A stretch of DNA of 64,000 nt from Owenia fusiformis (Eukaryota; Annelida; Polychaeta; Sabellida; Oweniidae): assembly GCA_903813345.2 (NCBI GenBank), contig CAIIXF020000004.1, forward strand, positions 5,911,525 to 5,975,524, read 5' to 3'. Under the pieces are notes generated by a model. The model was not told the DNA's origin, did not search any database, and saw nothing but the letters and a program-made list of their open reading frames with translations. Both the position numbers and the translations under genes were made by a program. Below, one piece after another: positions 1,480-62,963 of the stretch. The stretch's first letter is position 1, and every line of letters begins with the position of its first letter.

Positions 1480-1553
1480 CTTCCACCATGCTTCACACTG
1501 GCATCCCAAACCTCACAAAAATATGAAACCAACGAAGAGACTTCCATTGACAT
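1480..1553 (-). CDS. Possible first exon F, short TSC22 isoform
   Basis: A short open frame of 24 codons plus two bases (AG) ends at AAG|GTGAGT, phase 2. The predicted peptide is MSMEVSSLVSYFCEVWDASV then KHGG. Vertebrate short TSC22D1 and GILZ start with comparably short exons that are rich in Ser/Leu/Phe and carry A-S-V-R/K or V-S-V-K a few residues before the junction; here DASVKHGG occupies that place. It is also the first-exon candidate nearest the expected shared exons, as in vertebrates. Evidence is one donor, the phase and weak similarity, so chance remains possible. Confidence 0.38.
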
Positions 1554-2147
1554 ACACAATTTGATAAATAACTCCCGATTATTCCTTCAATTCCACAATT
1601 TTTACTCGCTAAACCAACAACTTCTCTGTTTTATAATTCAATGTCCTCAGCTAACCTAACTGTTAGAATCTAATTAGAACTGTCACAATGACAACACAAA
1701 TATGAATTGATTTTATGAGAGTTGTTAATAGATACATGCCAGTTAAATTATCAACAAGGCAGGTGACTGTAACATTTGCAAAACAATTGATTCTGGAAAA
1801 TTCCATTGCGACAAATTCACTCAATGCATATTAATGAGATATATTAACGATCCCCTATATATTATATTTGAATGTCATTGATGGAGATTGCCGATATATC
1901 CGCAATATCTTTGAGAAATACAAATATTTTGGACAAAGTTTGGAAATTTCTTGAAAGTCGTTCATCAATGTTTTGTTTATTTGGCTTTAATCTTCCTTTT
2001 AATCTGATCTATTCCTTATTATTTAAATATTGTGTTATTATAAATTTTATTGACAGGAATGCCCTTATGTTTCCCCTTTAATAACATCCTTTAAGATAAT
2101 GAATCATCTCTTATATTATTATTATTCATAGAGTCTCCGCTGGAATG

Positions 2148-2668
2148 TCACCCCCTCCCACATCAACCACTTTTCCAAATGTAAAGTAATGTGCCCCCTC
2201 CCACATCAACCACTTTTCCAAATGTAAAGTAATGTGCCCCCTCCCACATCAACCACTTTTCCAAATGTAAAGTAATGTGCCCCCTCCCACATCAACCACT
2301 TTTCCAAATGTAAAGCAATGGGCCCCCTCCCACATCAACCACCTTTCCAAATGTAAAGTAATGTGCCCCCTCCCACATCAACCACTTTTCCAAATGTAAA
2401 GTAATGTGCCCCCTCCCACATCAACCACTTTTCCAAATGTAAAGTAATGTGCCCCTCCCACATCAACCACTTTTCCAAATGTAAAGTAATGTGCCCCCTC
2501 ACACATCAACCACTTTTCCAAATGTAAAGTAATGTGCCCCCTCCCACATCAACCACTTTTCCAAATGTAAAGTAATGTGCCCCCTCCCACATCAACCACT
2601 TTTCCAAATGTAAAGTAATGTGCACCCTCCCACATCAACCACTTTTCCAAATGTAAAGTAATGTGCCT
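2148..2668 (+). repeat. 43-bp minisatellite, about 12 copies
   Basis: The unit runs CCCCCTCCCACATCAACCAC then TTTTCCAAATGTAAAGTAAT and GTG. Copies are nearly identical, with single-base changes and one short unit, which implies recent amplification. The open frame read through it on the minus strand is an artefact. Confidence 0.9.
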
Positions 2669-2734
2669 GTAAGTGTGTATATGTGAACGGAGGGGAGAAG
2701 GGAGAGTTAATTTGTTTGTTTCTTTCACAGAGGG

Positions 2735-3155
2735 GGAGAAAGGGGCAAAGAGGGAGAGAGGCATAGAGGGGAGAGGCAAAGAGGGAGAAAGCCACAGAGG
2801 GGGAGAGGCATAGAGGGGGAGAGCCACAGAGGGGGAGAGGCAAAGAGGGAGAGAGCCACAGAGGGGGAGAGGCAAAGAGGGGGAGAGGCAGAGAGGGGGA
2901 GAGGCAAAGAGGGGGAGAGGCAGAGGGGGAGAGGCAAAGATGGAGAGAGGCAAAGAGGGAGAGAGGCAAAGAGGGGGAGAGGCACAGAGGGGGAGAGGCA
3001 AAGAAGGGGAGAGGCAAAGAGGGGGAGAGGCAAAGAAGGGGATAGGCAAGGAGGGGGAGGCATGGAGGAGAGGCACAGAGGGACAGACGCAAAGACGGAG
3101 AGAGGCAAAAAGGGAGAGAGGCACAGAAGGAGAGAGGCACAGAAGGAGAGAAGTT
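2735..3155 (+). repeat. Polypurine tandem repeat (GGGGGAGAGGCAAAGA-type)
   Basis: About 420 bp of nearly pure A/G on the plus strand in 15-18-bp units with interspersed C. The TSC22 transcript would carry the pyrimidine-rich complement. Several overlapping long frames (Leu/Pro/Ser repeats) come from the repeat and are not genes. Confidence 0.9.
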
Positions 3156-3449
3156 AAGAATCAAATAGATGCACTCATTTAGGACATCAAAACTAATGCA
3201 ACAACAATAGCTATAGCACCAATACATGTCCTTTAAAAACACCCCCTACATTGTAACTTTCTATTGACCTTATAATTACTTCCTATCATGTTTATTTATT
3301 GATAGCTGCCATTGTTTCCTCCAGGGCTCTAATTGTATATTTGTGGTATTTGAGCAAGGTGCACAAATACCTTTTTTGTTGACTTTCGTATACTTTGCAT
3401 TGGTGATATAAGTTGAGTCTTATTCCAGGTTTTCTGCATCAACCTGATA

Positions 3450-3775
3450 TTTCAGGATCTGCTTTGCATTAAATTGAGCATTCAGGACATTGCTTTGCAT
3501 TGTTTTAAACATTTAGGATATGCTTTGCATTATCTTGAGCATTCAGGATATTGCTTTGCATTATTGCTTTGTATTGTTTTAAACATTTAGGATATGCTTT
3601 GCATTATTGCTTTGCATTGTTTTAAACATTTAGGATAATGCATCCTTTAGAACACTCAGAATATGCTTTGCCCATTCTGAATCTTTATGATTCAAATTAA
3701 TCTGAACTTTCAGGATATGCTTTGTATCATTGTGAATCTTCAAATAATGATTTGCATCATACTGAACCTTTAAGA
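3450..3775 (+). repeat. Degenerate ~30-bp tandem repeat (GATATGCTTTGCATT)
   Basis: GGATATGCTTTGCATTAT plus a TTTAAACATTTA-type spacer is repeated about ten times with growing divergence to the right. Confidence 0.75.
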
Positions 3776-5090
3776 TTCCTATGTATAACATTGGTTGATA
3801 ATGTCCCATTACATTAACAACATAGACGAACACATTAACTTTATACATAATATTCAATTTCATATATAGCAGAAGTATATCCAATAGCATACAACAATGA
3901 AAACAAATTATGTAACAACAAGTCATCACAAACTATGCACGAAGCAAACCCATAAGCATTTGTTCCCCTCCTATACTCCTCCCTGCTTGCCTAAGATGAG
4001 GTGAATAAAGACTCAATCCAGTCTGGTGCAAAGATGCAAAAAATAGCTCAAAACTGAGCAAAACAGCCATTAATATAAGCTGTACTTTTTCATGTGCCCA
4101 TGCATGAGATAATAAACTGAGTTTTATATAGACTTACTCTATATTGCACAGAACCCAAAAAAGTACAAACTGAGCAAATCATTTATCATAATATCTTTGA
4201 AGCTATGCATTTGACTGAGTTTTAAATATATACATATTATAAATGACCTACTCTAGAATATCCTGAGTGAGTTGCTGGCCAACACACGTCATGAGTCCCG
4301 TCGCAGTTTTTTCATCCAAATCTAACGATATTTTTGTGTTATCCCACATCATATTTAAGCATTACTCTGTATATCAATTCAATATACTGTTTTTATCTTG
4401 TTCAATGAATAACATCATAACAGTATAAATTATATCTAATGTTTTTCGTATATTCTGCTTTCTAGGTGCCATGTTTATTAAATGTTCCATTTTCAGAAGT
4501 CTAATATATTTTGCAGCTTCTTCATGTATATTTATTGCCTAACCCCGATTGAAGGTTATTTTATGTTAATACAGATATTATATTACAAGCGATTCTCGTG
4601 TCCTTGTTTGATTTCAGCATTCCTTTTTGGAATGAGTTACGAGCTTACTAACTCTTCTTGTTTGGTTTAATAAGGTATCTACCTGGGGTAGATTACGGCT
4701 AATATGCTCTGTTAAGAGGCAAAACCACTGATTTAACCGAATGTTTATATTTAGGTCAATGTTAAAGATAGATGATGAGTTCCTGCATTACTTTACAAGC
4801 TTCCGTTGCATTCAGTTGTTTTTACGTAATACTCTATGTAAAATGAAAGAATCATGGCAAAATTATTAACTGTTAAGCTTTTGTTTTATAACAGGAAATG
4901 AATGATTTTATAATCATAGAAGTGCAAATTTACAAACAATTAAAACAATGACGTCATTATATCTGAGAAATCATTGAGGAAAATATGCTAAAAATTCATG
5001 TGTTTTATATCTACTAGATGTGGTTGTTATGAAGAATAACATTGTTTATGCTCCAAATATGAAAATCTATCTCTTGAGAAAAATGTCAAG

Positions 5091-5235
5091 GTAGTCCTGT
5101 TTTAAAATGCAAAATAGAGTAGAAAAGAGAGGAATCAGCAAGGAATAAAGTAAACAGGCATGTAGTTAACACTCTAAATTGTATAGAAATGCAAGAAAAT
5201 GAAATACTTCAATCAAATTTTAGAGAGATGGAGTA
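5091..5235 (+). repeat. Family A dispersed repeat (type copy)
   Basis: A ~145-bp unit running from TTTAAAATGCAAAATAGAGT through GGAATCAGCAAGGAATAAAG and CACTCTAAATTGTATAG to a CATTCAAATTTTAGAG-type end. I count about 24 copies in the window, 18 on the plus strand. It contains AATAAA on its plus strand. No coding capacity or RNA polymerase III boxes were recognised. Confidence 0.85.
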
Positions 5236-5660
5236 GAAAATAAATTGACAGGAACGGAGAAAAATCAATTCTCGAGTACTACTACCAAAGCTTTCATCTC
5301 TTAATAACAAGTTCTAACTTCCAAGACAACTAAATAATGAGAGAAAACATGAATTTCCTCGTGATAATCAAGTTGAGTCCTTCCTTTGAATCTCAAGAAT
5401 ACAAGGCAGAGAGATGCAAGATATGATATAGTCTTACACCCTGATCTATTTCCTGTACCCCAAACCTTCCTTATTATTCCCTCTCGGGATGTAACAGAGA
5501 GGGGATGGGGAGAAGATAGGATACAAGACTAGATTTGCTGAGTATTAGAAATGAACATCAGATTCAAAGATATCAAAATCAAAACACAGTATTTTGTTAT
5601 TCATACTCAAATCTTTTTCTAAATCTGAACTAAATGTATTAATTTTCCGGAATCATTTAT

Positions 5661-5750
5661 AAAACAGAGTATCAACTACATGCTTGTTAACTATATTCCT
5701 TGCCGATTCCACTCCTTTTCATTCAATTTTCAAATTCTAAATTATGACCA
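5661..5750 (-). repeat. Family A repeat, inverted partner of 5,091-5,235
   Basis: A shortened reverse copy about 430 bp from the plus copy, so the pair could be the ends of one longer inverted-repeat element. Its AATAAA has mutated. Confidence 0.65.
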
Positions 5751-6374
5751 CAATATCATCATGACAGTGCATTTTCTAACATAATAACCTATGTGCAAAT
5801 ATTCTGAAATAATCAGGTCAATAACGTAATCCTTGCATATATCAACGCAACAACAACAACTCCCATGTCAACATCATACTTTTAATTAAATAACTCCCAT
5901 CTTCATGCATAATATATTTCAAGCACTGTCAGTAAATCCATTATTCAATTATACATATATCTATAACTAATATGCACTTTATATCTCTGTAAATCGTCAA
6001 GTTCAGTGATTATGAATTGTAATGCAGAATTTTAGCTACTTCGTTGTATTATAAGATCCAACATGGAGTACTGCACCGCACTGCATTGTAAACACAAAGC
6101 CCCTCCACACAATAATAACAGTTACAACATTATTGTTTTATAATTTCTTAAGACTATATTTCTTTATAGAAATATATGATCCGACATCATTTAAAATTCG
6201 AGATAATTGATTCGAAAACCAAAGAATAAGACAGCAGTCCTATGAACAAACATATACTTTCATTAAATTGCATTTATTATAATTTGTCGCAGAATTTTTT
6301 GAAGGGGTCTCATTGATTTTTTCTGAGAAAATTGCTTTTCTAGTTACTTTCATCTGGATGAGGGAATTACATTA

Positions 6375-7137
6375 AATTGTCAAGGTTGTGATGTTGTTCT
6401 CTCTTATTGTCAAGGTTGAAAATTTGTTCTATGTTATTGTAAAATTTTAAATGTTCTCTGTCATTGTCAAGGTTGTAATGTTGTTTTCTGTTATTGTCAC
6501 GGTTGTAATGTTGTTTTCTTTTATTGTAAAGGTTGAAATGTTGTTCTCTGTTATTGTTAAGGATGTAATATTGTGGTCTGTTATTGTCAAGGTTGAAATG
6601 TTGTTTTCTTTTATTGTCAAGGTTGTAATGTTGTTTTCTTTTATTGTCAAGGTTGAAATATTGTTCTATGTTATTGTCAAGTTGTAATGTTGTTTTCTTT
6701 TATTGTCGAGGTTGTAATGTTATTTTCTGTTCTTGTCAAGGTTGTAATGTTGTTTTCTTTTATTGTCAAGGTTGTAATGCTGTTTTCTGTTATTATCACC
6801 GTTGTAACATTGTTTTATTTTATTGTCAAGGTTGTCCTGCTATTTTCTGTTATTGTCAAGGTTGTAATGCTGTTTTCTGTTTTTGTCAAGGTTGTAACAT
6901 TGTTTTCTTTTATTGTCAAAGTCGAAATTTTGTTCTATGTTATTGTCAAGGTTGTAATGTTGTCTTTTGTTGTTATCAAGGTTGTAATGTTGTTTTATTT
7001 TATTGTCAAGGTTGTAATGTTATTTTCTGTTGTTGTCAAGGTTGAAATGTTGTTTTCTGTTATTGTCAAGGTTGAAATGTTGTCCTCTGTTACTGTCAAG
7101 GTTGAAATGTTCTTCTCTGTTATTGTCAAGGTTGTAT
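6375..7137 (+). repeat. 30-bp minisatellite, about 25 copies
   Basis: The unit is GTTGTAATGTTGTTTTCTGT then TATTGTCAAG. Because 30 is a multiple of three and the unit lacks stops in some frames, both strands show long decapeptide-repeat frames; these have no other sign of coding. Confidence 0.9.
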
Positions 7138-7530
7138 TTGTTCTGAATATCCCCTTGGCTATGTAATGGGCCTGAAACACCTCCTCAATAAAGAAAAGGA
7201 ATACTCAGATCATAAAAATTTGAAAGCCTGTCAGTCCTAGACAATCCCTGTTTTTTTCTCTGACATGTATGTGTAAGTAAAACAAAAATGTGGTTGACAA
7301 AGGCAATTGAAGAATGAAACATTAGCAATATTCTGGCATCAATAGACCCTACCCCCTAACCCCCCCCCCCCCATGCCTGCCCCATCTAACATTCTATTTG
7401 CCAAACTTGTGATTGAGAGAGAATATTACAGGGAGGATAAAACATGTATTATTCAGACAATTCGGCAGACTAATCAGATATTGGGTGTGTCATGTGTTCT
7501 TCTGAAAAGGAGGAGAGAAAGTCAACTTAC

Positions 7531-7733
7531 TGATCCACAACCTCAGCAATCACGCTATTCAAATGGCGCTTCTTTGAGGGCAATATCATATTATCGTTGC
7601 AATCCACGCATTGCATCATCTTGGTGTGGTGAATATCAGCAGTCGTCATATAGTTCTCAAACTCACTCAAGGCTCTGTTTATATTGATGTATTGACAAGA
7701 CACCGCAATTGATTTCTCCAAATATAGCGTCAA
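7531..7733 (-). CDS. Possible alternative first or internal exon E (phase-2 donor)
   Basis: An open frame of 67 codons plus two bases ends at CA|GTAAGT, again phase 2. The start is uncertain: ATG at 7,733, or the in-frame ATG at 7,649 giving MTTADIHHTKMMQ. The last 40 codons are GC-richer than the surroundings and look coding (a CVDC pair, then KKRHLNSVIAEVVD). An acceptor-like CAG at about 7,674 means it could be an internal exon, but its pyrimidine tract is poor. A shorter-quality plus-strand frame (7,373-7,687) covers the same DNA and is treated as its shadow. No protein family is recognised. Confidence 0.45.
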
Positions 7734-10133
7734 ACCTTTGACATATTCACCTTATCCAAGCATAACTAGTTCTGTTGTCATGCAATGATGCAATGTGTTC
7801 TTATATGCAATTGTTTTTTATCAATGCTGAATGTATAAAAGAATCGATTTCTCTAAATATAGCTGCTAATTCATTCCATTTAGTGAGAGCTGGTTGATCT
7901 GAACACCAGTTCTTTTACAATGTATTGCTTATGCTTTTTTCCATTTGGCATTTAAATGGCACAAATTATCAACTTACGGTAATTTTGTTCAACAACAATA
8001 CGTGCCTCAAAAAACGAATTCTTAAGAATCTTACAACAATTTGAAGAGGTTTTGTTGAAATGCTATTCTCTGTGGCTCTACAGAATAAATATGTTATTGT
8101 TTACTTTTCAGTTTTATGTATTTAAAATCCCTCAATGTAATGTCCTCATATGCCTCCATAGACATAATATCTTTAACAATGATTCAAATCATTTGTCCTC
8201 ATTCAAGATAAAATACATGATATTTTCCAATACCTATAATTTACCCTGACCTTATTGATTGTTCTATTGTATTAATGATTTTGATATATCTTGGACATCA
8301 GAAGATCATTTAATCCTTCTTTTTAACTTTTGTTTGAGATATCTAGAAATAATCCTGCCGCTTTCCAATCCACAATCCTACTATGTTGCACCAACTCATG
8401 TTTTAAAGATTTCTCCAAAATAAATTAACTTAGGATGTCTTTTATATATAGTCCCACAAAGAACCAGTTTCAACTAAATCCAAATTTTTTAATTTATTTG
8501 TTAGCTTTGAGTCATCGACAACCACATTTATATATAACCTACTCCTACTTTTTCCTAAAATCATAGTGGTGGTGTGATGCGATTTACCCTGATCCATATC
8601 AGTTATCTATATTTCCCTCTAACTACATCGAGTGATTTCATATTTCTGATGGTTATGATATCTTAATGATCTTAAATGGACTTTTTAATAAAAATGCACT
8701 ATAGTGGATTTCCGATTGTGTATTTTAATTGGATAAAGGCTTGATTAAATCATTACTTTTTATTTAGAGAGTCTAGATAGGGTCAATTTCTTAAACAGGG
8801 TAATGGCATTTCATCATATCGGGCAACCTAATTGTAACCCTCAGGTAAAAGTCAAACAACCCTTAAATTATTTCCCAAAAATCACAACTCTTAGAGAATT
8901 GGAAGTGTAATAAAATATTCACCAAAATATCATAAAAATCATAAAAATGAAAAATGGTCAAAATAAAAAGTAATGAAAAAGATGTTAACACTTAATCTTA
9001 TGAATTATTTGAAAGATCTACTCTAGAGATACATTATCGTCAAAGTTGTTAATTTCACAAAATGTAAAACATCATAGAATTGAGAATTACCAAAAAAATT
9101 AATAAATTTGACTCAATAATTTTTTAATTCTCTAATCTACATAGAAAAGATGATACTGCACTCAACTTTTTGTTTTTGAAGAGAAATGAGTGCAAAATGA
9201 GTGAGGAGAGAATAATTAGCAAGGGATGTGAAATTTTTGAGATATCACTTTGACCCTTTGAACATCATCCACCCATCATGAGTAAACATGTCAACATTTA
9301 CATAATTTATGAAAAACTTTATTAAAAAAATCCATTAAAACACAAAACATAATACATTATATTTTTCATTTTCAATTTTTAACAATAAGGAAGAAGAGTT
9401 TTCTGAACAGAAGTGTATTCATGGCAAAAAAAACCATTAAAACTTAAAGGTCGCAATGACCTTTTATACCCTTGAGCTGTTGATATCTGGGAGAACTCAA
9501 GATGAGCATGACATAGTCTAAATAAATAGATACACGTATGTATATAATATGTTTATACTCCAGGCACTTTGTCCTGTTTACGACAACAAATACAAAGGAA
9601 AAAGAGTACGTAACTAGTATATATTAGTAAAATAGGTGATACTATATCCGCAAGAAATTTTATGTAAAAATAATAAAATCTCTTCTCTTGAGAAGCATTC
9701 ATGCAAAACTTTTCGAACTGACCTTTGTATTTTAGTAAATGAAACAAACATTTAAGTCATGCATCGAGGCCTTAGGCAACCACCTACACACCTTACTATA
9801 ATACACAATAAAACTTCAATATCCGAACACCTGTCTTACATGACATTTTTCCAGTCCCATTTTTAAGAACCTTAAAGTGCGAACATCTGCCACTCTGAAC
9901 ATTTTGGCTGATAATGCCTTCAGCAAAGCCACTACAAGTGTATAATGTTTATATAAGTTATGTATTTGTAAAATAAATTCTATGAATAAAAAAAACAAAA
10001 AACATTTTGACTGGCTAAGAGGTGTTTGGATTAGACAGTTTCTAATTTAATAGAGGAATATTGAGACATAATGGACTACTAACATGAAAAACCCAATAAT
10101 CACGTTCAGAAAAACATTTTTATGCAAATGAAA

Positions 10134-10382
10134 TGGATGCAGTGGGGCGCATACAAATGAGATAGGAGATACTGAATAAATGGGGAGATGGCATTAAACT
10201 GGGTGGCTTCTCCTTTAAGAGACAATGGGATGTACATGTAGTTGACATGGCCTACTAACTAAAAAAAATCTGGCCGACGGTTTTTGAGTTATTGCCCGGA
10301 TGGATGGACAGACAGACAGACGGACAGAGGGACGGACGGAGGCATTCCCTATATCCCTCTGAACGATGGGATAATAACTGAT
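10134..10382 (+). repeat. SINE-like dispersed repeat with GACA/GACG microsatellite
   Basis: It contains GGCTTCTCCTTTAAGAGACA-ATGGGAT, then TTTTTGAGTTATTGCCCGGA, a (GACA/GACG)n tract, and an end AACGATGGGATAATAAC. The GAGACAATGGGAT segment matches the unit of the 29-bp minisatellite. Confidence 0.55.
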
Positions 10383-10978
10383 TCATCAAAAAAGCATAGA
10401 GTTACATGCCAGCATATTCCTATTTACCTGAAATAACCTTTGCCATTATATCATACATTTTATACCTATCAAAGTCTGAGTGAAATCTTCAGCCAAAACG
10501 CCTTGAAAAATTCCCAAGGGTAAACAACTGATTAAACCTCAAAAGCAAAATAAATCATTACCAAAATCCTCAATCAGCAGATAGGTAATCTGTAGATATC
10601 CAGAAATAATGAATTTGACATCATAATGATGTTAATATCATTCTGACATGTAAATCTATGTAGGGGTTCATCTCCATTACACCTGGTAACCATAGTAACA
10701 GAATAAATGGGGCTAGTTATGACATTGTGCCATAATTCCACAGGAAGTCAAAATGATATATTTTTCCTAATTGGAGAAATCTGTAATTCGTTTGATAACT
10801 GCTAATGTTAAACCACTGTGAACACTTCAACACGATTAACAACTCAAATTGTCAATGAAATGAACACCTATGAGCCAAAGAACACCTGTACATGATGTAA
10901 TGAACACCTTGCTTTGATATGGAACACATTTTTCATCACTTCAACTCTGATGCACCACAACTCACTATATACTCCCTG

Positions 10979-11096
10979 ATCCAGCTACAAGCTTCTGTGA
11001 CCCTCCCCCCTCTTCTTGACTCCTATTTACTCTTGTTGTAGTGGGGGGGGGGGGTCACAAGGGGGGGGGGGAGTCACAAGGGCTTGTAGCTAGACT
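10979..11096. mobile_element. C/G-run foldback element
   Basis: CCAGCTACAAGCTTCTGTGAC plus C-run on the left; the G-run/TCACAAG block is doubled on the right, ending GGGCTTGTAGCTAGACT. Confidence 0.7.
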
Positions 11097-11689
11097 TCCA
11101 ACAGTAACATTAACACATAAAAGACGCACACTGACATCAGTAAATACTTACGTCACTAAACACTGACATCCACTTATTAACACTGACATACACATTAATG
11201 AAGAATACCTGGCTAAACAAAACTGCTCTGACCTACTTACAGAAAAATAAACACTACGTAAATTCTAAAAATGTTCTCAGTAACTAAATCAGGTATATTA
11301 CTCATACTTGTATACTGAAACATCAGATCAAAAGCAAACCTGACCTCAAGCTTGCATCATATTGACCTTAGATTGATGGTTGCCAATAGTAATGCTCAAG
11401 GTAGAAAATAACAGGTTACCATGGCAACATTTTTCACATGAGCTCCCCTGGCAACAAATCATCTACCATTATATAATTTTGTGATTGTGAATATCTCAAC
11501 ATATGAAATGTAAGTTTACAAAACTATTAAAGCTTTCAAAAAAATCTTTTAATTAATGTAGATTATGAATCATAAAAAAATATAATACAAAAAACAAAAA
11601 AACAGGGAAAATATATTTTGGAAACACCTAGTCCCTTGTGGTTATTCCTGAGACCAAATTCCCTATCCAGTTATCCTTATTACATGATT

Positions 11690-11828
11690 TTCTTCTCTAA
11701 AATTTGAATAAAGTCTCTGATTTTCTTGCATTTCTATATGATTTAGAGTGTTAACTACATATCTGTTTACTTTATTCCTTGCTGATTCCACTCCTTTTCA
11801 CTCTATTTTGCATTTGAAAATGTGACTA
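11690..11828 (-). repeat. Family A repeat
   Basis: A full-length reverse copy; AATAAA is retained on the gene's sense strand. Confidence 0.8.
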
Positions 11829-16350: not shown

Positions 16351-17180
16351 TCAAATTAGCGTAAACACGATGGCATTTTCTACAAGTCAAGTCAGATTTC
16401 ATGTACCTGTATTGAATTTAACCAAACCAATCTGTGAAATATTTACACCTGACAACTTTTCATATTGCTTCAAAGCCAGAAAGGGGATTTCCCTGGTTGA
16501 AGTTGACAATGTGATTGTTCTTTTCAGACGTACTATTTATTTTATATTCATCAAACCACATACATATAATATATATATAAATATAAGCAAATCCCTACAG
16601 CAGGCAAACTTACACAACAGAGTAGCATATTTTCTAAACATATTTAAGATTATTAACATTATTAAAACTTAAGTTGTTTTTGAACTATATATCACCGCAA
16701 TGTCAAAGTACTCTTTGTAGATGACCTAACTACTTAACTCTTAAGATAACAATTACCACACCCAGTTCAACATTTAAGTTTGTCGATACTCTGACATTAA
16801 GAACTCTAGTATACAACAGCCAATCGCAAGCAGAGATAATTTCAATTTACGTCATTGAATATTCAAAATTCAGTCAAAGTGATATCATATTTGAAATCTA
16901 CATGGAAAATTACATCTAGCAATGTGGTTTCAAAAATTGTTCATCAGCTTGCTTTGATAATTCAACTTTCTTTGAAAATGTGACTTCTAGGTCGGGTTGA
17001 TTTCCGATAGACCCCATGTTATGAAATCATATTTTCTTTTACTGGATGCAACTGAAATGACTAAAATAAAAATATTCTTAGATTCTTAATGGCCAATTAA
17101 GTCATCATTTATGACAACAAAAATCTACGGAGATATAGGCGAATAGATAAATGGCAGGGAATCAGCTGATAGGTTTCTCC

Positions 17181-17702
17181 TTAAGGAGACAATGGGATAT
17201 GGTTGATCCTTAAGGAGACAATGGGATATGGTTGATCCTTAAGGAGACAATGGGATATGGTTGATCCTTAAGGAGACAATGGGATATGGTTGATCCTTAA
17301 GGAGACAATGGGATATGGTTGATCCTTAAGGAGACAATGGGATATGGTTGATCCTTAAGGAGACAATGGGATATGGTTGATCCTTAAGGAGACAATGGGA
17401 TATGGTTGATCCTTAAGGAGACAATGGGATATGGTTGATCCTTAAGGAGACAATGGGATATGGTTGATCCTTAAGGAGACAATGGGATATGGTTGATCCT
17501 TAAGGAGGCAATGGGATATGGTTGATCCTTAAGGAGGCAATGGGATATGGTTGATCCTTAAGGAGGCAATGGGATATGGTTGATCCTTAAGGAGGCAATG
17601 GGATATGGTTGATCCTTAAGGAGGCAATGGGATATGGTTGATCCTTAAGGAGACAATGGGATATGGTTGATCCTTAAGGAGACAATGGAATATGGTTGAT
17701 GT
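17181..17702 (+). repeat. 29-bp minisatellite, 18 near-perfect copies
   Basis: The unit starts TTAAGGAGACAATGGGATAT and ends GGTTGATCC; each junction makes the palindrome CCTTAAGG. Units 1-11 read GGAGAC, units 12-16 read GGAGGC, and units 17-18 read GGAGAC again. The last unit has one further change and loses its end. Confidence 0.95.
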
Positions 17703-30211: not shown

Positions 30212-31216
30212 CAAAACCTTTTCTATCATGGGTTCAAGAATACCAAGAAGTTACCCGATCTCAGCAAAAAAACAGAAAACATACAACTGAAATGCTGTAG
30301 ATTTATCCTAAATGTTAGTCGCCAGTGCAGCAATTTAGGTATACTTGGAGAAACAGGCAGACTTCCCATGTCTCATCACATTCAAGTAAATGCAATCAAG
30401 TACTGGATGCACCTTAAAACCCAAACCAAAAATAGTCTAACCTCTGAGGTGTTCAACCACATAAAATCCCTCAAATACAGCAAATGGCTATCCTTTATTA
30501 AGAATATCTTACTTAGCATTAACATCAATATAGAAAATATTACATTTACAACCCAAAAATCAAAAAATGATTTTATAAAAGAAGTTAAAGATAAACTTAC
30601 AGCCTTAACTAAATCACAATGGAAAATCAAAACCCAGACTGGTCAGAGCAAAAACCAAAACAGTAAACTGAGAACCTACACTAGATTCAAACACGACTTG
30701 AATTTTGAAGAATATCTTATTAATGAAAAAAGACTGGCCAATCGAACACAATTTACTAAACTACGTCTGAGTGATCACAAACTAGAAATTGAAGCTGGTA
30801 GACATAAAAACATTAAACTCAAAAACAGACACTGTAAACAATGCAACAATCAGGAAAATCTAATTGAAGATGAAGAACATTTTATATTAAAATGTGCAAA
30901 ATTTAATCATGAAAGACAAACACTTTTTGATAAGATATCTAATAATATTCCTAACTTTAAACAAATGACTGATGAAAGTAAATTTTTACACATAATGAAC
31001 TACAAATCTAACCTCAGCGACATCTAACACTTCATAACTGTATGCCTCAGAAAAAGATCTATGTAACCAGTATTATAGATAATAGATGATAGATAGTTAT
31101 ATATATATATTTTTACATTATATAAACTGTACATTCATTTTCTTTTCATAGCATGACGATACCATGTATGTATTTAATGTAATATGTTACTAGGTTGTGT
31201 CAATAAATAAATAAAA
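30212..31216 (+). mobile_element. 5'-truncated non-LTR retrotransposon (LINE), 3' end of ORF2
   Basis: An open frame after a stop at 30,211 gives 271 residues. It contains FILNVSRQC, GILGETGRLPM and NAIKYWMHLK, the post-RT pattern of LINE ORF2 proteins, and ends with a C-X2-C-X11-H-X4-C zinc knuckle (about residues 198-219). After the stop at 31,025 come an AT-rich 3' UTR and a short AATAAATAAATAAAA-type tail at about 31,201-31,216. The RT core and the endonuclease are missing. It lies antisense to the host gene. The clade cannot be fixed by eye. Confidence 0.8.
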
Positions 31217-37147: not shown

Positions 37148-37752
37148 ATTTTTGCCAATGTAGCCGATTTAAGTTCATCACCGGGATCACTAGAATTTGA
37201 TTCAGCAGGAAAATGATGCATTATGGGATATTCCCCATTCGCATCTGGGAACCTCCATTCCGGTATTGATGATATCGTACTGTAGGGACTATAGGTAGAG
37301 CCACTAGTATCAGTTTCATAATCCAGAGAATCATAACGCGACCTCCGATTAAAATTCTGGTCAACAACAGAATCAAGATTTTTTAATTCATGGATCGTAC
37401 TATATGGATTATATCCAGTGTCCGAGTCACTGTGACTATTAGTTCGCACTCGGTTTAAAGTTAGATAATGGTTCACGGCAAGATTCGGGCCAGGATGAAA
37501 GGAGTGAATCGTATTGTACAAACTTGGATTAGATTCCGGGGGAGGCTCGGAGTATCCATGAGGCTCCAAGGATGAACTACGAGGTCGTAACAACTGTTGC
37601 TGAACTCGAACAGCATGAGATTGTGATGGATATCGACCATCATATTGGTCAAATAGATGGTGCTGACATGCCATTTTCTGAGATGTTGGTACGTGCGTGA
37701 CAATAACTGATGGCATGCTTTTCTGCCGATTAAGAGATTTTTGAGTCTGCAT
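37148..37752 (-). CDS. Probable alternative first exon C of the TSC22 gene (201 codons, PYSTI repeats)
   Basis: The exon has 201 codons plus two bases and ends at AT|GTAAGT, phase 2. An in-frame TAA lies directly before the ATG at 37,752, so the reading frame cannot extend further. If the TATA-like box at about 37,771-37,780 is used, transcription would start near this ATG and the in-frame Met at residue 13 (37,716) could be the true start. The protein is Ser/Pro/Asn-rich with three copies of a tyrosine motif: SLYNTI (77-82), NPYSTI (115-120) and SPYSTI (155-160), the last two each preceded by an acidic Ser/Thr stretch. No known domain is recognised. Codon-like GC content is higher than in the flanking intron. 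Assignment to the TSC22 gene is inferred from strand, donor phase and location. Confidence 0.75.
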
Positions 37753-47674: not shown

Positions 47675-47689
47675 AATCAGAATTAAGCA

Positions 47690-52954: not shown

Positions 52955-53050
52955 ATAAGAAAAAAGAGTGAAATCAGCAAGGAATTAAAATATTTCATCA
53001 GCACTTCAAATTTAATCTTAAAATATCAGAAAACACTTCCTTTAAATATT
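52955..53050 (+). repeat. Family A repeat, diverged
   Basis: The AAAGAGTGAAATCAGCAAGG core is present. A weaker copy follows at 53,848-53,925 and a diverged reverse copy at 55,655-55,790. Confidence 0.5.
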
Positions 53051-53285
53051 TTTTTAAAAAAATTATAGAGCAGTCGATCTGAGTACTAAAGGCTCAACAG
53101 TACGTAGGCAATACTTATCTTTTTAAGTTTTTAAACAAGCCATTACTAGTAAAGTTTCATAATACACTTCCTTTATACCTGTGGTTATAATTTGTCAATC
53201 TACCAAGACAGACACTACAGTTAATAACTCTTTAAAAGAGCAATATTTTTATATACTCTTTAAACTAGGATGATTCTTTGCTATA

Positions 53286-53446
53286 CAGTAAAACCTTTCT
53301 TAGTGAACACCGCTCTAGTGAACACCTGTGTATAGTGAACACCCCATTTCCACTGACTTCTTAAATCACCTTTCTGTAGTAAACATGTAGACCAAAAGTG
53401 AACACATTTCTGTGGCTCTAGTGTTCACTATATACAGGTTTTACTA
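53286..53446. mobile_element. Family B inverted-repeat element (type copy), TA-flanked
   Basis: A 161-bp element with inverted ends CAGTAAAACC and GGTTTTACTA between TA dinucleotides. The interior carries several copies of an AGTGAACACC word and its complement. Short TIRs starting CAGT, TA flanks and internal echoes of the end sequence fit pogo/Tigger-like Tc1-mariner MITEs. No coding capacity. Confidence 0.75.
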
Positions 53447-54244
53447 TAGCCTATATCAAAAATAAAATATATACAGTGTAGTATAAAAAAATTGTTATAA
53501 GTATCTGAATGTTGAGTGCATATAAGTCAATGTTCAATTCACACTCAAACTACCCCAAAGCAATTAAAGATCCATTTGATATTATTAAGATCTTCTGAGC
53601 AGCAACTGTTATTGAATTGAAGGTTCCCATCATAAGAGACCATTGCTTTGCAAGCAGTGTAGGCCCTTAGGATCTGAAACCGGTTGGTCATAATGGCATA
53701 ACAGACCAGTTGTAATGTTATTTTCTTATACCAAGAGAAAAAATCAACTAGTCCATTTCTAGTTTTGCAAAGAGAAACTTCAAGTACTGTATATGAATGG
53801 AATATCTATTATCATGTTATTAAAATACAATTATTATCAAAATAGTTGAATCACTCGAGGAATAAAATAAACAAATATGAATAAACACTTAAAATAACAT
53901 AAAAATGCCAGGAAATCAAAAAATACAATTGAAGAAAAGGTGAACATACTCTTAAATGTCTCGTAATGACACATGTGGAAACCCAAACAAAGTCATAAAA
54001 AGAAGTCTTTAAAAAAGGTCATTTTAAATAAAATGGGATCATATAAAATAAAAGGTATATTGAATATCCTGTTTGCAAGACTTGTGGTCGATGACTAAAT
54101 CATTCCATTTATGAATTCTATACCAAGATGTTTTCATTTACTAGCATCAAGTATTTTATTGCTCATAATATCAACTGGCAAATGTATAAATAGCAATTAC
54201 TTAGAAAACTCCTAGAATTTAATTTAAGTCTTATTGCTTACTGG

Positions 54245-54330
54245 GAGATCTTGTAACCCCCCCTCTGTATAGAGAGGTATAATAAATTGGGGGGGGGGGG
54301 TGTTATAGAGACTTGTACAAGGCTAAATGT
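54245..54330. mobile_element. C/G-run foldback element
   Basis: ATCTTGTAACCCCCCC on the left; a 10-base G-run with GTTATAGAGACTTGTACAAG on the right. Confidence 0.5.
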
Positions 54331-56506
54331 TTGATAAAACTATACCAACTCAGGGATTTCATTAGAGTTTTAGGATAAAAACATTTGCAAAAAATCTCAA
54401 AACAATAAGAGATTCGGTAAAACAACAATATAAATTGCCTGTTATCTGTTGCTAATGAAATCCCTACCGATTTGTCAAAAATGACCAGTTTTTCACTCAG
54501 GTGTCAAGTTTTTTAAAACTCCTGCATATGGATATTTTCTACATTCTCAGTATAAAACGTTCTCAAAATACAGTAATATACACTTCGAACCCATCGACCA
54601 CCCCTCCAGCTACGGGCATGACCTGTTTATATGGAACACTCTCCTATTGCATTTCAAGTCAAACATCCAAAATACATCTACTCTGAATTTAAGCGTTATA
54701 TCAAGTCTATATAAACCCCCTCCCAATCTACTTCCTCCGCCTTTAGTCTTTAAGCAATATATGTGGGCTAGAACACTAAAACTCGAATTTCGCTCTGTTT
54801 TCTGTATTGCATCTGTGCATGTATCGACATATTCAAAATATACCAGACCACAGAATCATGCAATCGCCTCATAAGTCTAGTAGCAGCAAATTCATTATTT
54901 GATTAAGAAAATATAACATTACGCAATTTAGATTATCCGGATGCCTACACAGCGCAATTAATGTTATTGTCTCCAATGGGTCATGTTGTTTCATAGTAAA
55001 GTATTGATTGATCTTAGCTGAAAACAAAATTCTGAAGTCTGTTAAATTGGTAAAGACATATTTTAACAGGGTACAGGTAATTTATACATTATTTCAATGG
55101 GTCAGATTCTTCATGAAGCAAAATGGATGATTTGTGAAACTCTAAAATGGGCGCATAAGGAAGCAAAATGGATGATTTGTCAAGGGGGGGGGGTCAGACC
55201 ATTAGCACCCTTTTCAATAGTATGATTTTGCTTGGTGAAAAGAGAGCTTCATCCTATTTTACTAGACTCTGATACTTGAGCTAAGTGAGATCACTTTATT
55301 CAATGAGCAGCTGATACTGGGAGAGAATTGTAACCAGTGAGACTCCTGTACATAAAATGACCAAGTCATCATCTCTTAAAATATAAAAATAGGAAATTAG
55401 AGTTTTTTACAGAGAAATGACCTATGCAATAATAGACTAATTGTATGTTTAACATATGTGAATGCAAGGATCTTTATATATAAGGGAGGAATAGCATGAC
55501 ATAAACATGATACAAGTGTAATTTCATGGAATGGTATCTGGTGCTGGAATTCTTTGGAGACTGACTCAGCTAAGCTGAATAGTGCAAACAATCCATAGAT
55601 ATGATACAAACTCATGAAAAATATTCAAAATGATTATGCTATTTCTTGTTTCTTTCCTAAAAACATGAATGAACTGCTCAACTTTCTTTCATTAATATAT
55701 AATTTAGAGCTTTAATTACACGCCAGTCCACTTTTTTCTTTAAAAATACTACTCATTTCCATTCAAATACAGATTTCAAAACATGGCCATGTTATAACAT
55801 TCTTCCAGGAAATCCCCAAAATGATAAGGTTTCCTGTTAATACCAATTTCCCGTTTCAGTTTGATATAATATAGAAGAATGGCGATCATCCAGTGTTTCC
55901 TTATTCACATTTTATTTCGTTAAGATCAAGTTGACCAACTATAAGGACTTTGTCAATGAGTAAAATGCACCAAGGCCAAGTGCACCAATACCTTCGTAGA
56001 AAAATATCACTCGTGTGAAAAAAGAGTGCATGCTCAATATCAAATCAGTTCTAGATTTCCAACCCGAGCAACATCCCTGAAAATTTTAAATCAATCCGTT
56101 CAGGCAGTTTATCTGGAAATGTACTGACAGTGAGATACTACTCAGTTATGCCAAGCTCATGACAATTTTTTGGTATCTTTTAGGAACGATAAAAGATATA
56201 GAGAGAACTAGCACATACAAGAATCACGCATGACATTTTTAAGCAACGTTAAAGCCTCCCCAGAGAGTGTTTAGCACCATCATTAGCAGTTTCTATTTTT
56301 TAGATAAATTATTGATGATGGTGAACTTTATCCTTTCTCAAAGCTTTTCAAATGATTATCACTTTGTTTTCATTTGTAGAACTATAAATCATCATGACCT
56401 TATCTGCTATAAATGAGTGAGCATCATTTTACTAAATGAAATTTTTCTGGGAATTTTTATCAATTAACATGCAAAATTCCAATTTCATTTAAAAATTGTC
56501 TCTGTA

Positions 56507-56661
56507 GTAAAACCTGTCTTAGTGAACACCTGACTCTAAGAGACACCCTTCTTCCACACATACTCCACTGACTTCAGTACATTTCTTTCTCTGAAATTAA
56601 AACCTACCAATGCTGAACGTTTTTTCTCAAAAATGTTCATTTAAATACACAGGTTTTACTG
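56507..56661. mobile_element. Family B element
   Basis: Ends GTAAAACCTG and CAGGTTTTACTG; TA is visible only on the left. A further diverged copy lies at about 56,990-57,160. Confidence 0.65.
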
Positions 56662-57240
56662 TGCTGATATCTAAAGAAAAAAATTGTCAGAATCTTGACA
56701 ATTTGAAGAAAGGTAACAAAACTGAGAAAATGAGAATTACAGTTGAAAAAGTTAAGAAATAGATTTTTTTCAATAAGCTGTATTCTTTAGTACTTGCTAC
56801 AACCTGTGCCAATATTTCTGACTTTAATTGGCAGAAAATGAAACAACATTATTCAGACTGTCTGATATCTAGTTAAATACCAATCTATAAATATGGCATA
56901 TTTCATAGTTATATAGTCGACAATCCCACAATAAAATCTGAATTTATGTGATTTCATCGTCATGCATGTTATACTGCACTGTACATAAAAACACCTTTCC
57001 AAATAAAGACCTTAAAATGTGAACACTTTTAGTCAAATTTTAGATATTCTGCTTACATCACCAATATGACACACTAAAATAAAATTATGAAAATATATCT
57101 GTGTGAACACCTAAGGCTGGTCTTAACAGCAGTGTTCTATTTAAACAGTTTTAACTGTTATATTGACCTATTATCATCAATTGTAATCGTTTCTCTTTTT
57201 TTAAAAAAAAGTTGTAGTTCAAAGTAGCAGCATGCTGCAG

Positions 57241-57320
57241 CGGAGTGTATAATATTCAATAAGTCAGTGGTAGAGCACTCATCCAGAAAATGAGTGGTCA
57301 CGGGTCCCCCCACTGGGGTA
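57241..57320 (+). pseudogene. Degenerate tRNA-like sequence (tRNA-derived SINE remnant)
   Basis: CAGTGGTAGAGCACTC matches a tRNA D-arm/A-box. It is followed by an anticodon-arm-like hairpin CTCAT-CCAGAAA-ATGAG and GGTCACGGGTCCCCCCACTG where the T-arm should be. The T-loop is broken, base 33 is C rather than T, and no acceptor stem closes, so it is not a working tRNA. Confidence 0.45.
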
Positions 57321-58134
57321 GACTGACTTTTCACATCAGCCCTTTGTGCAGAATTTCATTCTGTGTTTTCATTAATGAAGTAATATTTTTAAAAAGCGAC
57401 CAAAGTTTCTGTTATAGTCCTAATTCTATTATCTGCAAAAAGAAGATATAACAAATCTTTTTCAAAACAGACATTTGTTGAGTGCTCAAATTTCTCACAC
57501 TGATAAGGATGAACCAAGTCATAACTTTTGGACCTTTTAGAACAAGCAAGACACAGTGGTAAGCAAAAATTGACTCTCAACAATGAGTTAAGAACCCATA
57601 GAGCTAATTACAAAGTTTGGGAATCCACATGGAATTATGGAATTTATTTATTTATTTGATCTATGAAAATAAGTATTAACAAAAATAAATCATGATATAA
57701 TACAGACACCAATTGCTTTACTTCTTGTACAATTGAGTTAAGTAAATTCATCATGCAAAGGTATACCCTGAATTGCCATCAGCCAAGCACTCCCTCTGAC
57801 TTTTACAAGTGATTTGATGTTGTCTGACTTCATGTGTTCTGATTGGATAGAGGCTAGATTAAACAATCTCCAATTCAAGAGTAAAGACTAGTCCAATCTC
57901 TTGGTAAGGATGTTAAAAGTACAATCAATTATCCAGTTCATATTTTATAACATAACACATGCCAGCGAGTGAAAATAGAAAAACTGCCAATATAAAATGG
58001 ATATTATTCTGCAGTATACATAATCCAAATTCCATAAACTGTACTTAAAAAACAAAGTATTGGAGGAAAATGTGAGAAATAAACATACTTTTGAGAGGCA
58101 TTATTGTGTATTCTATTGCAAAAATTATTTTTGA

Positions 58135-58420
58135 AATACCCTGGCACCTTGTACTTTTACCAAAATGAAAAGTAACATGTAAAAATGAAAAAAAGAAAGA
58201 GATTTGAAGAGAACGATTTTAGATACGTCAACAAGACAAACAATTTGTAAGGGTCTAAGGATTAACAGCAAGATGCCCTGGCACCTTGTACTTTTACCAA
58301 AATGAAAAATAACATGTAATTAAAATGAAAAAAAAAAAGAAAAAGATTTGAAGAGAATGATTTTCAGATATGTCAACAAGACAAACAATTTGTAAGGGTC
58401 TAAGGATTAAACAGCAAGTT
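58135..58420 (+). repeat. Tandem duplication of ~135 bp
   Basis: CCCTGGCACCTTGTACTTTT...AACAAGACAAACAATTTGTA and GGGTCTAAGGATTAACAGCA are repeated once, nearly identically. Confidence 0.85.
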
Positions 58421-58647
58421 CAAGATTTATGGATGTTTCAAGACCAAGACAATGTGTTAAATAATCTAGTCACGCTTATATGTGACCTTAGGGTAATATG
58501 AAATAAAGAGGAAAAGAAAGGAATCGGTTAAGGAATAGTGTAAAACAGATTTTAAAATTAAGATCAGCCTTAACATTTACATCTTAGATAAAGAGTAACA
58601 TAAAGATGGCCTTTTTCTGATGACCTTTTAGGTGCATTATATTAGTA

Positions 58648-58819
58648 CAGTAGAACCTGCCAAGTGGAACACCTCTGTAAGTGGAACACCTCACAAGTGG
58701 AAGTGTTTTTAAAGTCCCATGACCTATCTACTCCATGCTAATGAACCTCTATAAGTGGAACACCTCCCAAGTGGAACTTTTGTGTTCCCAAGGGTGTTTC
58801 ACTTACACAGGTTATACTG
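58648..58819. mobile_element. Family B element
   Basis: 172 bp, ends CAGTAGAACCTG and CAGGTTATACTG between TA dinucleotides; the internal word is AAGTGGAACACC. Confidence 0.75.
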
Positions 58820-59168
58820 TAGTTCACCCATCTTCAGAATTTAACTTTTATGGCTGTATATAAGCATAAAATCTTTATAAACTCCTTCACTTTGAAATGG
58901 TAAAATGTACTGCACTACCGACACAAACAGCAGTAGTCTACATCAGAAGAAAGACTCTTCTAAAGAATGTTGAGTTTTCTAACCTTGAAATTGTATCAAC
59001 ATGATGTCAGTTTGAAATTGTATTACTATGATGTCAGTTTCCAAGCCTCCATACCCAAGGTCTCATATAATTGGCCAAGGACTATACTAATGAAATGACA
59101 TTCCTTGACTCAATGTCATTGTAATCCAGCTAACTTGTAACTAACATATTACAGACTAGGCTAGTGTA

Positions 59169-59327
59169 CAGTAAAACCTGTCTTAGTGAACACCTGTCTC
59201 TAGTAGACACCCTTCCTCCACTCATACTCTACTGACTTCTCTATAAATTATTCTCTCTGTAGTGAACACCTACAAACACTGAACGTTTCTTCTTTGCAAA
59301 AAATGTTCAATATATACAGGTTTACTG
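59169..59327. mobile_element. Family B element
   Basis: Left end TA-CAGTAAAACCTG intact; the right end has a one-base loss. Confidence 0.7.
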
Positions 59328-60257
59328 AGTAAACTTTAGTCTAAATACAACATGTCTAAACAGTTCAAAAGATATCCCTATAGGTACACCTTAACTCACT
59401 TCACCTTCAACTTTTCACCTGCAAGGCCTACCTTAACTCAAAAATATTTATTATTGAGATGATAGTTAGTTCAGATTTTGATACTTAAACCAAAAAATGT
59501 TATTTTTGGAATAAAATTTATAATATATACTTTAAGATTGCATATTTCAATTTAACACATTCTCAAAATGAAAAGTTCAAAATATTTTGGCATCCTATCA
59601 GTTTAATAAATAAAATAACACAAATTTCAATGAAACACATCCTCAAAACATAGAAGTTAAGAATATTTTGGCACCCTATTTAGTAACTGTTATCTTCACA
59701 TCAACTGTATCTTTGCATATAGGGTTAGGCATTCTTTCAACTATCTGAAGGACGGTGTCTAATAGTAATTGTTATTGAAAAATAAATAAATTTTGTCATG
59801 GTTTAATACCCCCCCCCCCCCCCCCCACTCCCAATTAAGCAAACACTGAAAATAATGATTCGCTAACACTTGAAAAGTCAACATTTTTCACAAATGTGAT
59901 AAAATCATTGTTTACCCCTACCCCATAAAAAAAACTATGTCATTATCGAACAAATGTTGGCAATTTGACTCAATACATAACTTATTTATTTTATGTACAC
60001 TATTCTACTAATCCCAACCTGTTAGTCAGTTTATGATTCAATTAATCATGAGCAAACCTTGGAGCAAACATAACTGTGCTGATAAATTATTGTATTCTAA
60101 ATAATTACAATGTACCAAGTGATTTGCTGAAGAGGTTCATTTGGTAATAAGTAGAGTGCTGTGATCTGGTTGAAATAAACATACAATTACATATATCCTA
60201 TATGAGGTTCAGGATATTGGAATTATCCCAAGGCCATATCTTCCCACTCAGCAAGGA

Positions 60258-60353
60258 CTAGACTAGCTACAAGCCCTTGTTACGCTCCCCCCCCCCACTT
60301 CAACTGAGTGAGAAGGTGTTTAGTCACACTCACAGAGGCTTGTAGCTTGACTA
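60258..60353. mobile_element. C/G-run foldback element
   Basis: The left arm ACTAGCTACAAGCCCTTGT plus C-run pairs with GAGGCTTGTAGCTTGACT on the right. Confidence 0.65.
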
Positions 60354-60678
60354 AGCTGGGATGAAATGCTACATCTTGCCCACTGATGAAAATACAGCTT
60401 TGCAACCCTGTTTTATGAACTTCAAACATGTACGAGTTATGGGATATAACATTCATTATTGACAGGTTTTACTGTAATATATTTAGACATTTTCTTGTGG
60501 CCACTATCCCTAACATATATTTTCAAGCCACAAAGTTGAAGTATATGTCCTACAAGGTATACGAAACAAGTGATCTTTGTAGACCATCCAAGAAAGCTAA
60601 AATACAGAATTTTTGGGCTCTTTTTTGAATGTCACACTACTGTAATGAACAATCATGACCCCCTCTTTCAGCTGGTGA

Positions 60679-60797
60679 TAGTCTAGCTACAAGCCCCTGT
60701 AACCCCCCCCCCCATGTCCTTCTACTTCTACACATTATCTCCCACTTGTTTGAATGCGAAGTGAGGGGGGGGGTTACAAGGGCTTTTGGCTAGACTA
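60679..60797. mobile_element. C/G-run foldback element (type copy)
   Basis: A 119-bp inverted repeat. The left arm is TAGTCTAGCTACAAGCCC...TAAC followed by a run of C; the right arm is a run of G, TTACAAGGGCTTTTGGC, TAGACTA. The arms form a hairpin with a G:C-run stem. Confidence 0.75.
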
Positions 60798-61308
60798 AAT
60801 AGGTGAACTGATTGGGTTCTGTGGAGATTACATGTCTACAGTCTATATCCCTTTTGCTGGAGTTTATTGGAAGTGACGTGTACATGACAGAATAGATGTT
60901 TTCACATTGGAATTCTCATTTTTATCCCCTGACATCATTCACGCATCATTCATACATATATCGAACATTTTCCATGCAGAAAGTAAATAAACTAAAGCCT
61001 AAAGCTATACAGGATAAGACCATTCAGAATGTTGAATACATGATCTTCAATCATGTTCAACATTTATCCCTCTTTCACACTTTCAGATCGTAATTCACCA
61101 TCAACAAAACAAATATACACACACACATTGATTTTTTAATTGTTTTATGCAAACATTTCAGAATTTTCATTGAAATATTTTATGAAAAGGTACCCCGAAT
61201 AGCCCAAAATAATATATATCCAGACCACTTTTGAAGTGAATTTGAAAATGTGGCAAAATATGAGAATTAACTCTGAAATTTTTACACGGATAAAATCGGA
61301 TAACTTAC

Positions 61309-62963
61309 CCCTCAGCCCCTTCTTTTTCATCTAAACTTGAACCGCCGACGATTTCCAATAGAGGGGGCGTGAGTAGGGTCTGTGCGGTCCCACGACTGCT
61401 GCCTAGTGAGAGCAATACTGATGGTGTGTTCTGAGTTGTCGGAATATTTGTATCCACAGTGACAGGTTTTGCCGCCTTTTCCTGTTTTATATCCCTTGGC
61501 CCTGCCACTCCTGCTGGGGTAGGAGGGTCTGTCTCCTTTGTGAAGACGTCATCATCTGGACTAGTTGTGCTATTGCGGGGTGGTACCACTGTTCCTTGTT
61601 CAGTGACATCACTTGTGCTTACGGCTCCTCCTACGTTGCTATCTATAACTTGGTCAGTCACTGAAGCTGTGCTGAGTGTAACCGAGGGCTGGGTTGCCGG
61701 TGCAACGGTAGTCGAATCAGGAACACTCGTGGAACTATCTAGGGCTGCAGTTGATTCAGGCTGAGACTGGCTAACATTAAGGTCAGATGTCCCGTTTTTC
61801 GCTACATGGTCGTATCTTTGTTCTTGATCGCTAGATTGTTGAGCATTAGAAGGGGCTTGTGCTTGCGTTTGTATAGGAGGCGTGCTCTCCTGTCTTGGAG
61901 GGGTGGTTGTGGAGTGAACATTTTGTTTTGAAACAGATACACTTTGAGCTTGTTGTTCTGTTGAATGTGATAAATCAGCCTGTGGGGTAGGGGCTTGTAT
62001 AGTATAATCAATATTAGTGTACTCATTGTTACTAACATTAGCGGGGCTTTGACCTATATCATACGCAGATTGATTCAGCCCTATGTCATCATGTGGGCCA
62101 GGGGGCTGTGAAATATTGGGAGGCTGGGGTTGCACAATGTTTGTTGATTGCACTTCTTGGGTGTTGGATTGATAGTGTGAAGTAGACTGTGAATGCTGCT
62201 GAATAGACTGATTTGTGACTTGACCACCAGAGGTCTGTAAATCACTTTGTCCGTTAATACTTTGACTTGGGTATACTGGCTGGGGCTCCACCAGTGTTTG
62301 ACCATCAGATAGCTGCTTAGATATCGTAATCGGATTCTTCGCTGGGTCGTCAACTCCAGGGACATAATGGACAGAGCTAGCTGCACTTGAGTTTCCAGAG
62401 CCTCCCTCTTGCTCAACTTTGGAATCCGATCTTTCGACATTTGGTTCAAGATAATCGTGGCATTGCCATCGCCCTTTCCTGAATGGCTCCTTTGATTCTA
62501 ATTTTACAACTCTAAATCTAGAAACAGAATCATTGCGTAGTATGTGCTCGTTAAAACTATCACTGGGGTTGATCGGAAAGTTGTGAAGTGTATCCACAGA
62601 TGCAGCATCAGGCTCAACATCTGTATTGCGAGAATAATCCAACATATCAGAACTGACATCTTCAGTATGGGACTCCTCAAGGTCATCCATGCTATAACTG
62701 TCAGCGTCGACCTCTGACATATTTTTAACGCGCACACTTGTAATCTGGAAGGCAGTTTTCTTTTTCGTGATATCAAGTTTACTAACCCCAGACATTTCTG
62801 GGTCCTGTTTAGAGCCCTGATCATCATCAACATTTTGGTTTGAAACGTTCACCTCATTTGAATTGACAGCCATGTTTTCTGTAATCATTTGTACAGAACT
62901 TTTCTCGTCATTTGCCATCATATTTTGAGTCGACGAGGTCGATCCCAGAATATTTTTTGTCAT
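61309..62963 (-). CDS. TSC22D (bun): First coding exon of long TSC22-domain (bunched-like) isoform
   Basis: This exon encodes 551 complete codons plus two bases of the next, ending at the donor GG|GTAAGT. Two blocks diagnostic of long TSC22D1/D2/D4 and Drosophila BunA proteins are visible. Block 1 is KKKTAFQITSV (about residues 67-77), followed by DDLEESHTEDVSSDML and YSR (93-112). Block 2 is SRFRVVKLESKEPFRKGRW (148-166), then QCHDYLE. The rest (about 180-550) is low-complexity Gln/Ser/Thr/Pro-rich sequence, as is usual for this isoform. The first ATG has A at -3 and is preceded by non-coding sequence. Long TSC22 proteins are leucine-zipper regulators of growth, signalling and transcription; that role is family knowledge. 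The zipper and TSC box belong to later exons not seen here. TSC22D identity is strong; which vertebrate paralogue it matches cannot be decided. Confidence 0.93.

Follow-up and report, generated by a model that had tools for sequence, protein, structure and literature searches.

A TSC22/bunched-like locus of Owenia fusiformis with several predicted first exons on one shared zipper module

In the portions of the literature cited here, TSC22 genes are described as placing alternative 5′ exons on one zipper, an arrangement already known from Drosophila bunched and from GILZ (PMC2253523, PMC6445858). From bunched come six transcripts that differ in their 5′ exons and encode the same C-terminus; its long forms carry two conserved N-terminal domains, BunC is given there as the sole fly form without the conserved region that precedes the TSC box, and BunB and BunC oppose BunA (PMC2253523). 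L-GILZ uses an alternative upstream exon 1 (PMC6445858). Long TSC22 proteins bind the CCT domains of NRBP1 and WNK through RFRV/RWxC-type motifs; these R-phi motifs are restricted to the long isoforms, which the short isoforms oppose (PMC12266109, PMC12266122). TSC22D2/4 contain RFRV and RWTC (PMC12266122), and TSC22D3.1 inhibits SPAK phosphorylation (PMC12266109). Here we analyse a TSC22/bunched-like locus of the annelid Owenia fusiformis in a stretch of 64,000 nucleotides (the window; GenBank assembly GCA_903813345.2, contig CAIIXF020000004.1, positions 5,911,525–5,975,524) together with sequence to its left. Our reading, to which we assign a probability of about 0.82, is that of a single gene in which exon A and at least exons B, C and D serve as alternative first exons on a shared exon 2 and exon 3.

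Long open exons in the phase of one TSC22 acceptor

An earlier note on this DNA had described four long open exons on the minus strand, each ending in GTAAGT with the codon split after its second base. All four were found, open from an ATG and spread over 42.7 kb. Positions below are those of the window unless given as contig positions.

Exon A, 62963–61309, minus strand: predicted first coding exon of the long isoform; 551 codons plus two bases; GTAAGT donor, phase 2
Exon B, 50214–49769, minus strand: candidate first coding exon; 148 codons plus two bases; GTAAGT donor, phase 2
Exon C, 37752–37148, minus strand: candidate first coding exon; 201 codons plus two bases; GTAAGT donor, phase 2
Exon D, 20498–20245, minus strand: candidate first coding exon; 84 codons plus two bases; GTAAGT donor, phase 2
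Shared exon 2, 1059–1014, minus strand: 46 nucleotides, one base followed by GASTVAIDNKIEQAM; first half of the TSC box
Exon 3, beginning at contig position 5883727, minus strand: DLVKSHLMFAVKEEV...TSTS and the stop; second half of the TSC box and the leucine zipper; phase 0 at its start
Exon E, 7649–7531, minus strand: weak candidate; 39 codons plus two bases; GTAAGT donor, phase 2
Exon F, 1553–1480, minus strand: weakly supported candidate first exon of a short isoform; 24 codons plus two bases; donor AAG/GTGAGT
Candidate G, contig positions 5884584–5884435, between exons 2 and 3, minus strand: 50 ATG-open codons; GTTAGT donor, phase 0

The minus strand of the window holds 20 GTAAGT sites. 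Sorted by ATG-open length, with phase ignored in the ranking, the five longest (551, 201, 148, 84 and 39 codons) are all in phase 2; the next four, with 38, 35, 30 and 27 codons, are in phases 1, 2, 1 and 2. When the strand was simulated 200 times with an order-3 Markov model, sites with 84 or more open codons arose 0.02 times per strand on average and sites with 148 or more never, and the longest open length among the 10 GTAAGT sites of the real plus strand was 27 codons; chance thus does not account for the open lengths of exons A–D. GTAAGT itself is not enriched in the window (30 sites on both strands against 32.6 expected), and it is open length and phase that carry the evidence. The simulated expectation also bears on the view that only exon A is genuine, perhaps together with a short form like F, and that B, C and D are chance frames. 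Vertebrate TSC22D1, for which the portions of the sources cited give two transcripts (PMC2253523) or three proteins (PMC12838652), lends that view a precedent, but beyond the open lengths it has to contend with an 18-nucleotide repeat array in exon B in which five of six changes fall at codon position 3, although neither of the two changes in a 9-nucleotide array does so, and we find it scarcely credible. The two weaker candidates that were said to behave like the four long exons do not fare equally. Exon E, at 7,531, has the donor and the phase, but sites of at least 39 codons are expected 0.94 times by chance, which puts its length at chance level; exon F, at 1,480, departs from the pattern with GTGAGT behind 24 codons.

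Exon 2 was located on the minus strand by words typical of the TSC box. Its boundaries are an acceptor ending in tgtattttcag and a donor atg/gtaagc, with phase 2 at the start and phase 0 at the end, and its first base completes the split codon as the phase of A–F requires. On a simple measure of pyrimidines plus CAG with hand-chosen weights, the exon 2 acceptor scores 3.85, which ranks it within the top 0.65% of the 6014 AG sites on the minus strand of 110 kb. The acceptor of exon 3, which follows on the same strand after an intron of 28,810 bases (28.8 kb), scores 5.40 (top 0.08%). Several distinct 5′ coding exons therefore share the phase of one acceptor, A–D and the acceptor all being in phase 2. 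The one-in-27 chance previously quoted for three further exons sharing the phase of the first is correct, and with the acceptor known the chance of four exons matching its phase is 1 in 81. Because exon 2 is 46 nucleotides long, skipping it would break the frame of phase-2 first exons, and phase thus ties A–F to exon 2.

Exon 3 gives the sole match to PF01166 (TSC22) found in the genome, with 34 candidates scored; it lies on the minus strand of the same contig and scores 90.8 bits in the genome scan and 91.9 bits for exon 3 alone against a cut-off of 30. A search for paralogues found no second PF01166 match in the genome, and a search for COX1 gave no match. Exon 3 also matches one solved chain, 1dip (E = 7.9e-18). 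In bacterial and archaeal contigs, a collection not meant for animals, 176 pattern-matched stretches were found and none was confirmed as a relative. The VAIDNKIEQAM stretch stands ahead of DLVKSH, joined in frame across an open exon 2–exon 3 joint, as in the family motif. Joining A–F to exon 3 by way of exon 2, and G to exon 3 directly, gave one open frame ending at the same stop in each of the seven cases. Judged from its sequence, the locus is a member of the TSC22/dip/bun family. The TSC box had been expected to the left of the window: it does lie leftward on the same strand, but not wholly outside, as its first half falls inside at 1059–1014 in the required phase. Its second half and the zipper follow across the 28.8-kb intron, so that a TSC box is within reach of the exons. 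The interpretation put forward in the earlier note, alternative first exons on one TSC22 zipper, is thereby supported at the level of sequence.

Coding signal was measured as whole-codon log-odds, with the longest open frame from each of 22 kinase loci in this genome as the training set; for exons A–D, the predicted frame scores highest among the six. Among 279 ATG-initiated open reading frames (ORFs) of at least 39 codons in the 110 kb, a set to which the exons themselves, their antisense frames, repeats and remnants of mobile elements also belong, 3, 5, 7 and 13 outscore A, D, B and C, respectively; nine outscore E and nine outscore G. Codon signal is absent from exon F. The synonymous-codon score of A–D is above that of all 140 chance ORFs (for exon D, off-frame comparison gives 3.38 against 3.46). 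These synonymous-codon z-scores were rejected as proof of frame, since off-frame values are equally high and the score thus reflects base composition. Repeats within the exons are a weak test of coding: the 18- and 9-nucleotide arrays of exon B together place 5 of 8 changes at codon position 3 and its 15-nucleotide array is unchanged, a repeat pair in exon C places 2 of 3 there, and a pair in exon A 1 of 1, not synonymous, as read by hand.

First exons or internal exons

Acceptors were scored within the open frame ahead of each ATG, up to the in-frame stop. None scoring above 0.5 occurs in the eight open codons before the ATG of exon B, or at exon C, where an in-frame stop immediately precedes the ATG and leaves zero open codons. 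Exon A likewise has an in-frame stop close upstream, a single open codon separating it from the ATG. At exon D, a weak acceptor stands 7 bases ahead of the ATG (score 0.85, top 5.4% of the 6014 AGs), and the exon could also be read as internal. With that AG and one leading base it would be a symmetric 2-2 exon, which brings to mind a different arrangement: B, C and D might be internal cassette exons within at least one long transcript that begins further upstream, their 2-2 phase allowing inclusion or skipping without damage to the frame. The scoring, which covered sites up to in-frame stops only, leaves room for this. We nevertheless consider it unlikely, given the acceptor results for B and C, the rank of the D site beside the top 0.65% and 0.08% of exons 2 and 3, and an asymmetry of CpG in the exon flanks that indicates promoters.

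CpG is depleted over the 110 kb, with a median observed/expected ratio of 0.39 in 600-bp windows, but not in B, C, D, E and G; the exons have ratios of 0.57 (A), 0.92 (B), 0.91 (C), 1.44 (D), 0.89 (E) and 1.06 (G). CpG is higher in the upstream than in the downstream flank for 7 of 7 candidates at flank sizes of 500 and 600 bp and for 6 of 7 at 300, 800, 1000 and 1500 bp (permutation p 0.0025–0.043 for all candidates and 0.015–0.041 without exon A). Exon 2 has no upstream CpG excess at 300–600 bp. The asymmetry fits separate upstream promoters, short of proof.

Several observations weigh against a single gene with separately promoted first exons. For exons B–E alone, the CpG asymmetry has p values of 0.011–0.22 depending on flank size, and the upstream CpG of exon C is low (0.33). 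Exon 3, an internal exon, is richer in CpG upstream than downstream at each of the six flank sizes, perhaps due to the adjoining candidate G upstream. High CpG in coding exons is ordinary here, with 5 of 22 kinase frames at 0.9 or above (range 0.28–1.11). The predicted frame is not the best of six for E and G by whole-codon log-odds, and the synonymous-codon score of A, B and C is beaten by at least one off-frame (for A, 7.33 and 6.67 off-frame against 4.48 in frame). The acceptor scoring ended at the in-frame stops, and any of B, C and D could be preceded by a non-coding exon.

Candidate G stands apart in that its phase 0 fits exon 3 directly, bypassing exon 2. Its donor, GTTAGT, is unusual, its frame is not the preferred one and its 50-codon length is matched by chance frames; support for it is thin.

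N-termini and their possible roles

RFRV and RWQC occur in exon A only, one of the seven N-termini. Exon A thus has the RFRV and RWxC of a long isoform (TSC22D1.1, TSC22D2, TSC22D4 or BunA) in an N-terminus whose disorder was judged from composition only. Two matches to OSR1_C (PF12202), a CCT domain, are present in the genome, and CCT-type partners therefore exist in this species. Exon B has 17 Ser/Thr-Pro sites in 148 residues. In exon C the peptide YSPYSTI / YNPYSTI is repeated at 37274–37293 and 37394–37413, the copies being 120 nucleotides apart; it is possibly a duplicated short binding motif. Three stretches pattern-matched to exon C in viral contigs, again a collection not meant for animals, were not confirmed as relatives. 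Exon F looks like the human short isoforms (TSC22D1.2 and GILZ) by eye, a likeness rejected as not significant: against human short N-termini, local alignment gave p 0.51–0.63 and junction-anchored alignment p 0.022–0.61 over 12 trials. None of B–E is significantly similar to two such human N-termini, the lowest local p being 0.054 (C with GILZ).

Exons A–E have no Pfam match above the cut-off, and exon D has one below it (E = 0.064). For B–D, this leaves some footing for the proposal that certain of them are exons of unrelated nested genes or relics of mobile elements that share a phase by chance, and ORFs nearby do resemble mobile-element remnants by eye. Set against that, B, C and D have one protein-level match each in the genome, namely themselves, match themselves alone at the DNA level within 110 kb, and all have the phase of the single TSC22 acceptor that lies downstream; we regard the proposal as very unlikely. 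The alternatives weighed here are compatible with one another and, for single exons, with the one-gene reading.

If one gene with alternative first exons is the correct reading, several first coding exons, each probably with its own promoter, would be spliced in one phase onto exon 2, which would then be spliced over the 28.8-kb intron to exon 3 with the second half of the TSC box, the leucine zipper and the stop. Promoter choice would thereby decide which N-terminus sits on the common dimerization module. The A form would be the isoform coupled to WNK and NRBP1 via RFRV and RWQC. As these motifs are in A alone, B–D (and E, F and G if real) should dimerize with A while adding no NRBP1/WNK contact, and might dilute, redirect, tune or oppose it. 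From BunB and BunC, which oppose BunA in Drosophila, and from TSC22D3.1, we infer that such antagonism may operate here.

A bolder and tentative idea is that the locus exchanges N-termini by promoter choice through two docking ports, with six phase-2 exons joining exon 2 and the phase-0 G joining exon 3 in place of half the TSC box. Diversification in this lineage might then have come from promoters added to a single gene, as opposed to the four genes of vertebrates, with B–D possibly bringing new partners to WNK/NRBP1 dimers.

Long tandem arrays lie at 2151–2667 (period 43, 12 copies), 6376–7136 (period 30, 25.5 copies) and 17178–17700 (period 29, 18 copies); the 30-nucleotide array at 6376–7136 and a 16-nucleotide array at 2744–3151 underlie long open frames that resemble repeats, not genes. 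On the plus strand, a 271-codon frame at 30212–31027 looks by eye like the end of a non-long-terminal-repeat retrotransposon protein and has no Pfam match at E 0.01. Within the 28.8-kb intron, open stretches resembling mobile elements by eye lie at contig positions 5893508–5893927 (minus), 5895037–5895307 (minus) and 5899366–5899667 (plus).

Comparison with described TSC22 genes

Our literature search listed no report on alternative TSC22 first exons in a lophotrochozoan, and the number and content of B, C and D may be new; they are unstudied N-termini on a known zipper. In growth and in osmotic WNK signalling, long and short TSC22 forms have opposing effects, and one gene with several well-separated N-termini would allow the effect of each form to be tested without redundancy among paralogues.

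The vertebrate TSC22D genes, here represented by human, and this locus have in common GAS-VAIDNKIEQAM followed by DLVK-HL. Vertebrates have four genes, TSC22D1–TSC22D4 (GILZ being TSC22D3), against the one found here. The earlier note had drawn its parallel with vertebrate TSC22D/GILZ, and alternative first exons do occur there too, but vertebrates are not the sole closest case, Drosophila bunched being equally close. Where vertebrate TSC22D2/4 are described with RFRV and RWTC, exon A has RFRV and RWQC (PMC12266122). The product of G joined to exon 3 would resemble BunC, which is presented in the portion of PMC2253523 cited as lacking the conserved stretch that precedes the TSC box. As far as that account of bunched extends, the fly gene and this locus, as we read it, are alike in being a single gene in which several 5′ exons with distinct N-termini are set on one TSC box and zipper.

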